Source of the DNA: Pontibacillus marinus BH030004 = DSM 16465
GTDB taxonomy: Bacteria > Bacillota > Bacilli > Bacillales > BH030062
Assembly (NCBI RefSeq): GCF_000425225.1
Contig: NZ_AULJ01000038.1
Span: 1-57,987, forward strand
Length of the DNA stretch: 57,987 bases
Direction of reading: 5' to 3'
Part shown: positions 29,144 through 30,246 of the stretch, in pieces
Numbering within the stretch: the stretch's first letter is position 1
Layout: each line of letters opens with the position of its first letter
The notes under the pieces: generated by a model
The model's database searches: none
What the model was told of the DNA's origin: nothing
What the model saw: the letters and a program-made list of their open reading frames with translations, nothing else
Position numbers and translations under genes: made by a program

Positions 29144-29596
29144 TTATCCTTCATTAACAGTTAAGTCAGCTTCTAGTCTTACATCCACATTCCCTTTAAT
29201 AGCCCGGGAAATCATGCAACTTTCTTCTGCTTTTTCTGCGATTCGCTGTAGCTTGGTTAAATCATCCATTGTTGCTTCTGGCTTTAGCCTTACTACTGGA
29301 CGGTGGATGATTTCTTCGTATGTGATCACACCTTTTGTTACATCTACTACACCCTCTGAACTCATGTCCATCTCATCTAGCGGAAGACCAGCGCGTTCAA
29401 TCATTGCTCCGAGTGTAATGATATAACACGTAGCTGCTGCTCCTAGTAACATTTCATCTGGGTTTGTCCCAATACCAGGCCCGTCCATTTCTGTTGGAAC
29501 AGAGATTTCTGTCTTCAACTTGTCTGCTTCAATTGTACCTACACTGTTTCGCCCACCTGGCCAGTCAGCTTTTAAGTGAAAATGATGTTTTGCCAT
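29144..29596 (-). CDS. OsmC/Ohr-family peroxide reductase
   Basis: OsmC-fold thiol peroxidase of 150 residues that would reduce organic hydroperoxides in the cytoplasm. The two redox cysteines are at the family positions: Cys57 in LLGAAATCYIITLGAM and Cys127 in KAEESCMISRAIKGN. The N-terminal NSVGTIEADKLKTEISVP is also OsmC-like. The subgroup is closer to YhfA/OsmC-like than to Ohr, a weak judgement. It starts 11 bp after the selenoprotein-like gene with a strong ribosome site (GGAGGAACC), so the two are likely cotranscribed as a redox pair. Confidence 0.87.
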   Translation of the reverse strand: MAKHHFHLKADWPGGRNSVGTIEADKLKTEISVPTEMDGPGIGTNPDEMLLGAAATCYIITLGAMIERAGLPLDEMDMSSEGVVDVTKGVITYEEIIHRPVVRLKPEATMDDLTKLQRIAEKAEESCMISRAIKGNVDVRLEADLTVNEG

Positions 29597-29607: not shown

Positions 29608-30165
29608 CTACTCTTCGCTGTTATGTTTCTCCATGTATTGCAAGACTTTGTCTAGCTGTGCATGGTCCTCTGGTGATGAATCAATATGATGCCAGATCAT
29701 TTGACCTTTTTGATCATATAACCAGGTTCCACCTTGAATATAGACATCCTGCGTTTTCATTGATTCTTTTACAAATTCTTTTTGGTTTTCATTGTTAGGC
29801 AGGAAGTTCTTCACCTTGCCTGTCATTGCACCCCAAAGCGCTTTTGATAGTAGCTTCCACTTTGGCATTGTCACAGTACCTTGTTCTTTATATAGTTGTC
29901 GGGAAGGATCTCCATATATACCGAATGGAAATGGCCCAAAGTGCTCCATAAATTGCGCGATAAACGATGCACTTGATGGAGCAATGGCGACAACCTGAAA
30001 TTCTTTGGATTCAACTTCATCTATTCGCTCACGCAACTGCGTGAGATAAGCACGACAAACCGGTCAACCAAGGTGACGCACGAAAACAACCATTGTCTTT
30101 TGACCTTCAATAACCTGACCTAAGGTTCTCTCATCCGTCTGCCCTTCTAAGATTGGTTTGGACAT
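29608..30165 (-). CDS. AhpC/TSA-family redox protein, probable selenoprotein (UGA-encoded Sec34)
   Basis: Thioredoxin-fold protein of the AhpC-TSA_2/SelL-like type, 185 residues if TGA at 30064-30066 is read as selenocysteine. From ATG 30165 (AGGTGGTG upstream) the frame runs MSKPILEGQTDERTLGQVIE, then VVFVRHLG-U34-PVC37-RAYLTQL and on in frame to the stop at 29608. The TGA replaces precisely the first Cys of the C-x-x-C expected after 'FxRHxGC'. A perfect hairpin lies 18 nt downstream (separate entry). Without recoding only a fragment starting at an internal TTG would be made, lacking the active site. Alternatives are a nonsense mutation or base error. Cotranscription with the OsmC-type gene supports a peroxide/disulfide role. 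Confidence 0.75.
30028..30045 (-). promoter_or_regulatory. Candidate bacterial SECIS hairpin
   Basis: On the minus strand CTCACGCA / TGCGTGAG is a perfect dyad with a 2-base centre, best folded as a 6-7 bp stem with a 4-6 nt apical loop containing AGTT. It begins 18 nt after the in-frame TGA (30064-30066), and the loop G is 26 nt from it. That lies within the 16-37 nt spacing known for bacterial SECIS elements. Confidence 0.65.
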
Positions 30166-30246
30166 TGGCTTCACCACCTATACCCCCTATCATACCGAAA
30201 TCTAATCACATAATCCAAATGGTACGATGTGATGTTTGCTAAATCA

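Follow-up and report, generated by a model that had tools for sequence, protein, structure and literature searches.

In the available part of PMC9312934, the selenoprotein of the AhpC-TSA_2 family (pfam13911 / cd02970) is described with the active-site motif UxxS. The same motif is given for the Prx-like2 entry in the accessible portion of Table 1 of a 2026 review (PMC13188914), which comprises 119 families and subfamilies by its authors' count, and the accessible reference list traces this UxxS entry to the Olavius symbiont paper. The review, in the part available, also describes a Prx-like thiol:disulfide oxidoreductase (PF00578) with UxxC or UxxU and the classical peroxiredoxin PxxxTxxU, carrying Thr three positions before the peroxidatic residue. 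For the Bacillales, three selenoproteins of three families were reported in 2006 (PMC1794560, accessible text). The combination of PF13911 with UxxC was looked for in the accessible portion of the 2026 table of 119 families and was absent, a UxxC form of AhpC-TSA_2 was not named in the available text of PMC5029168, and none of five search terms was found in the available text of the deep-Sep paper PMC12013277. The gene reported here apparently belongs to a subfamily that is of a known kind but absent from the catalogue and Sec-only at close range; RefSeq or the literature may hold an earlier mention of it.

The window, by which the whole analysed stretch of 57,987 nucleotides from Pontibacillus marinus is meant, carries this gene on the minus strand at 29608..30165 (185 residues plus stop). 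Rereading of the sequence placed the start at ATG 30165-30163 and the terminal TAG at 29608-29610, with a TGA at codon 34 (30064..30066, minus strand) as the single internal stop; the coordinates in the original prediction, which had described the frame as open save for this TGA, were exact. A ribosome-binding-like AGGTGG (30174..30179, minus strand) precedes the ATG, as judged from the sequence and the choice of start. In the mechanical ORF list the gene begins at TTG 30036, resulting in loss of the active site, just as had been foreseen for standard gene callers. Both strands of the window hold 2391 TGA triplets, exactly one of which (30064-30066) had 20 or more open codons ahead of it, 60 or more behind it and a perfect hairpin of at least 6 bp, located 16-37 nt away and carrying G at loop position 1 or 2; these thresholds were chosen with the site known.

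The 185-residue protein passed the Pfam gathering cut-off for AhpC-TSA_2 (PF13911, 56.6 bits vs 27) and was also over the cut-offs for AhpC-TSA (PF00578, 42.9 vs 26) and Redoxin (39 vs 26.6). A near full-length match was obtained with NCBIfam NF040769 (SelL-related redox protein; window E 7.5e-28), which all 42 aligned members matched (42/42), the best of them being L094 with 114.8 bits and E 3.3e-33 (L, G and C numbers denote loci, genomes and contigs of this study). The curated cut-off of 120 bits was not reached by the window protein (97.3 bits), and no NCBIfam model was over its cut-off for the window protein or for ten members scored individually. As the window protein stays below the NF040769 cut-off, the label 'SelL-like' used at first was partly right: relatedness stood, membership did not. 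With the published AhpC-TSA_2 selenoprotein, the window protein shares the Pfam domain and a Sec in the active site, whereas the motif is UxxS there and UxxC or UxxY here, a comparison made by description only. The UxxC motif and a Prx-like fold are common to the window protein and the Prx-like thiol:disulfide oxidoreductase; the latter is assigned to PF00578, whereas the window protein scores higher for PF13911, a distinction drawn by description in which the two may overlap. Where the classical peroxiredoxin motif given in PMC13188914 has its Thr, the window protein has His31, which is near-invariant in 42 sequences.

The best solved relative by sequence was human prostamide/prostaglandin F synthase (PDB 9us9, 9usa; 1.2e-9), of which a C44S/C47S mutant is a deposited entry. 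A structural model of the window protein was of low confidence (mean pLDDT 57.7) and was used for the general fold only. It showed a strand at 23-28 and a helix at 35-52, which would place residue 34 at the helix start. The top fold matches, weakened by the low model confidence, were again the human enzyme, here with 19-21% identity, and then Bcp-type peroxiredoxins. In the alignment with the human enzyme, U34 and C37 fall on its CxxC (GUPVC vs GCVVC); the human enzyme has Cys where Sec is placed here, and its substrate may differ. The TGA is at the first-Cys position of the redox motif (residue 34 of U-x-x-C), as had been proposed. The family is probably related to eukaryotic SelU.

Genomes of the order were searched with a query carrying Cys at residue 34, so that TGA forms were not favoured by the search. 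A homologue was found in 70 of 397 genomes (E up to 1e-10). Residue 34 was covered in 69 of these and was encoded by TGA in every one (69/69); no Cys form was found among the order matches at E up to 1e-10. The expectation of Cys or Sec at this position was therefore borne out for Sec and not for Cys. Loci of Bacillus haikouensis, Rossellomorea aquimaris (two) and [Bacillus] enclensis carried the same TGA at 57-60% identity. Using a 42-member profile (A1; 42 of 73 loci, with the window's own row in place of L023), 12/398 genomes of the class matched at 1e-12, all with TGA at the site (12/12); 8 of these 12 belong to orders other than that of the host (TGA in 8/8). Across the phylum, 5/398 genomes matched this profile: the host, one genome of the same order, the distant G629 and G761 with tandem copies, and the distant G426. 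The last (~26% identity) has Cys at the residue-34 site. In G629 and G761 (24-30% identity), TGA occupies the site in 4/4 tandem copies, and a CAGTTGCG loop follows at the same distance from the TGA in 4/4, with stems such as CTGGCGC/GCGCCAG; the residue three after the TGA is Cys in 3/4 copies and Gly in 1/4. Judged from these alignments, Cys forms exist but only far off among the genomes sampled. G761 (L100) and G629 (L101) lie outside the class, as distant relatives arranged in tandem pairs. In a plasmid collection, 3 records had distant matches (28-34% identity).

The 73 loci represent about 70 genomes, since L020, L021 and L022 are apparent duplicates of L045, L051 and L043. L097, which has no residue 34, was left out of the site count, and the truncated L096 was left out of the synonymous count. 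The frame was open for at least 143 codons after the TGA in 72/73 loci. In L096 (G179) the TGA is kept and a stop follows 47 codons later, while L097 (G285) is a C-terminal fragment only, without residue 34; both genomes retain selA. Residue 37 (codon 30055..30057, minus strand, in the window), the presumed resolving thiol of U-x-x-C, was Cys in 65/73 loci and Tyr in 8/73, indicating that the second thiol was not retained in every lineage. The UxxY loci (L086-L090, L092, L093, L095) have kept both the TGA and the hairpin.

The host genome (4.28 Mb in 77 contigs, listed as 100% complete with 1.4% contamination) was searched for selA, selB, selC (tRNA-Sec) and selD, as had been suggested with the original prediction. 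All four were present, together on contig C41. Profile searches yielded 557.6 bits for selA (cut-off 267.9) and 362.6 bits for selB (cut-off 242.25). The tRNA-Sec scored 65.9 bits (gathering 47), in agreement with ARAGORN, and has anticodon TCA. selD is located between selB and selA and was recognised by its sequence, not via a family search. Its N-terminal part (L010, contig C41, 9954, minus strand) requires an in-frame TGA, MTKEEKIRLTTLSTKAG-U-GCKLGP, and the ORF list begins selD at an internal TTG. Between selD and selA lies a SelW-like (Rdx) CxxU frame (L010 10166, plus strand; PF10262 73.8 bits, 1 internal TGA). Both TGA sites, of SelD and of the SelW-like gene, are also present in the relative G004. 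The inverted repeats that follow them could fold as AGUUU-loop hairpins when read by eye; the minimum-energy folds differ from this hairpin (z -2.21 for the SelD stretch, z -2.15 for the SelW-like stretch), so that their support for a common loop is weaker. Three host genes, namely the present one, SelD and the SelW-like gene, appear from their sequences to need UGA as Sec. A search of the host genome for AGUUU-loop hairpins 3' of a TGA returned 11 rows, two of them being one site, vs 4 for a reversed control pattern; in our judgement, plausible frames among these rows hold only the SelD and SelW-like sites. Because hairpins with another kind of loop, such as the AGUU of the present gene, escape this pattern, the host may have further selenoproteins. 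According to the available part of PMC13188914, no bacterial selenoprotein is more widely distributed than FdhA. The host genome has 3 matches to formate dehydrogenase alpha, 2 of them over the family cut-off (C44:5460-7466 and C2:151016-153058), and an internal stop was looked for in all 3 and found in none.

In the order, selA was over the cut-off in 181/397 genomes, so that Sec machinery is common there even if its proteins are rarely recognised. All 70 gene-bearing genomes have selA (70/70 vs 181/397; hypergeometric P 1.6e-28, with kinship ignored). In the host family, the gene was found in 2/9 genomes at a limit of E 1e-15; selA was over the cut-off in 2/9 as well, and these are the same two genomes.

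The dyad CTCACGC-AGTT-GCGTGAG (30028..30045, minus strand) is separated from the TGA by an 18-nt spacer, the distance from the TGA being 25 nt to the loop and 26 nt to the loop G; the perfect dyad at 18 nt and the loop G at 26 nt had both been reported correctly. In the bacterial SECIS model given in the accessible text of PMC13188914, the apical loop has 3-9 nt with a G as its first or second base, the upper stem has 4-16 bp, and the spacing from the UGA is 16-37 nt. The hairpin agrees with this text: its loop is AGTT, its stem has 7 bp, the G is the second loop base and the spacing is 25 nt. Among 65 distinct sequences and 7 pairs, pairing was retained in 98.7% of 455 cells. Both-sided changes were observed in 3/7 pairs (C-G/U-A, A-U/G-C, plus C-G/U-A in one sequence). 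The covariation score was 0.260 vs a shuffled mean of 0.173, with 0/500 shuffles reaching 0.260, and the signal was lost when the pairing partners were slid; the number of pair types (7 vs 6.0 in shuffles, reached by 19/500) was in weak excess. Since kin sequences can beat shuffles without any structure, the synonymous-codon test matters. Over 72 loci, the same residue always had the same codon at +8, +9 and +10 (1.00), which are located at the hairpin loop; elsewhere within 25 codons of the site, synonymous identity was 0.21-0.67, except for +12 (0.90). The loop was AGTT in 72/73 loci and AGGT in one, and CAG was present at the loop site in 73/73; further downstream in these genes, CAG accounts for 253/521 Gln codons. 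The hairpin of G004 has one mismatched pair. When 50 nt were folded alone, the hairpin formed with z -0.51, 48/200 shuffles being at least as stable; its stability alone is unremarkable, so the case for it is comparative. In this proposed check the hairpin and its fit to the SECIS model held up. No Rfam match was obtained for window positions 29900-30200 up to E 10.

In view of the sel genes present, the TGA in 69/69 genomes, the agreement with the SECIS model and the compensatory changes, the original prediction that Sec is inserted at UGA-34 is almost certainly correct. With scarcely less confidence, the gene is predicted to encode a Prx-like2 (AhpC-TSA_2) thioredoxin-fold selenoprotein in which UGA-34 specifies Sec. 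Bacilli are known to read UGA leakily, and ordinary suppression, inserting Trp or another residue without selenium, could be invoked on that basis. It was judged very improbable, as the strict selA link (70/70) has no role under such read-through, the covarying hairpin serves no purpose, and TGA at the active-site position of every copy covering it is left unexplained. Still less credible is the synthesis of two products, in which translation from TTG 30036 would yield a protein of 142 residues beside a short N-terminal peptide. This TTG (30034..30036, minus strand) is found in 72/73 loci, and the exception, GTG, is also a start codon; it lies within the SECIS loop and stem, where a start is unlikely. 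The ribosome-binding match at the TTG was at background (mean 3.47 vs 3.49 of 6), whereas the proposed starts scored 5.60 of 6, though they were partly picked by such a score. The codons ahead of it, CAG and ACG/GCG, are equally frozen and the stem covaries, neither of which a start codon explains, and the resulting protein would be without the active site.

Substitution rates were compared in four pairs. Between the window and G004, dN was 0.047 and dS 0.396 after the TGA; the 32 codons before the TGA hold just 1 synonymous and 3 replacement changes, too few to judge, so that selection in that part rests on more distant pairs. In three other pairs, dN was below dS both before and after the TGA. 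By these estimates, purifying selection acts on the region after the TGA in each of the four pairs. A nonsense mutation or sequencing error in a decaying or misread Cys gene, to which the in-frame stop typical of pseudogenes and the two remnant-like relatives L096 and L097 would be suited, is as hard to credit as the two-product reading, given an identical TGA in all 69 genomes covering the site, a downstream frame open in 72/73 loci and this purifying selection. On the comparative TGA, selA-link, hairpin and ribosome-binding evidence, we rejected a pseudogene, a sequencing error, read-through as Trp and an internal start.

For the selenoprotein, the following mechanism is proposed. SelB and Sec-tRNA(UCA) would insert selenocysteine at UGA-34, with guidance from the 7-bp hairpin whose AGUU-looped stem begins 18 nt downstream of the UGA. 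Sec34 would lie where the first main helix begins, and its selenol would attack the substrate, a peroxide or a disulfide. Cys37 would then close a selenenylsulfide, and a thioredoxin-type donor would probably reduce it. In the Tyr37 lineage, an outside thiol would replace the Cys37 step. A redox role of Sec34 is very likely given the kinship with prostamide/prostaglandin F synthase and Bcp-type peroxiredoxins. That the main substrate is a peroxide, and not a protein disulfide or lipid endoperoxide, was given an even chance.

The next gene (29144..29596, minus strand) encodes an OsmC-type SACOL1771 family peroxiredoxin (NCBIfam TIGR03563, 212.1 bits vs cut-off 166.15) and lies 11 nt downstream. 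We infer that the two genes are co-transcribed, and such a neighbour fits a role in oxidative stress. The OsmC-type gene adjoins the selenoprotein gene in 2/73 loci (the window and G004). In flanks of mostly ~1.5 kb, neighbour genes were common within groups of near relatives and different between groups, and no functional clue can thus be drawn from the neighbourhood.

Gene finding that stops at TGA is expected to lose the active site of this gene, which is present in 70/397 genomes of the order. Selenoprotein families can be found by Cys/Sec pairing (PMC13188914, available part); families that lack close Cys relatives are difficult to detect in this way. As UxxC and UxxY forms coexist, what the partner Cys contributes can be tested directly. 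The results also draw attention to a lineage with frequent Sec machinery (selA in 181/397 genomes), tied there to small redox proteins. On a view to which we give about equal weight for and against, the subfamily would be Sec-only at close range among the genomes sampled, class-wide and missing from the published catalogue; its UxxY lineage (8/73 loci), having lost the partner Cys, would function as a peroxidase with a single selenocysteine and an outside thiol as reductant; and, together with SelD and the SelW-like protein, it may keep the Sec machinery alive where formate dehydrogenase alpha genes are found without an in-frame TGA.
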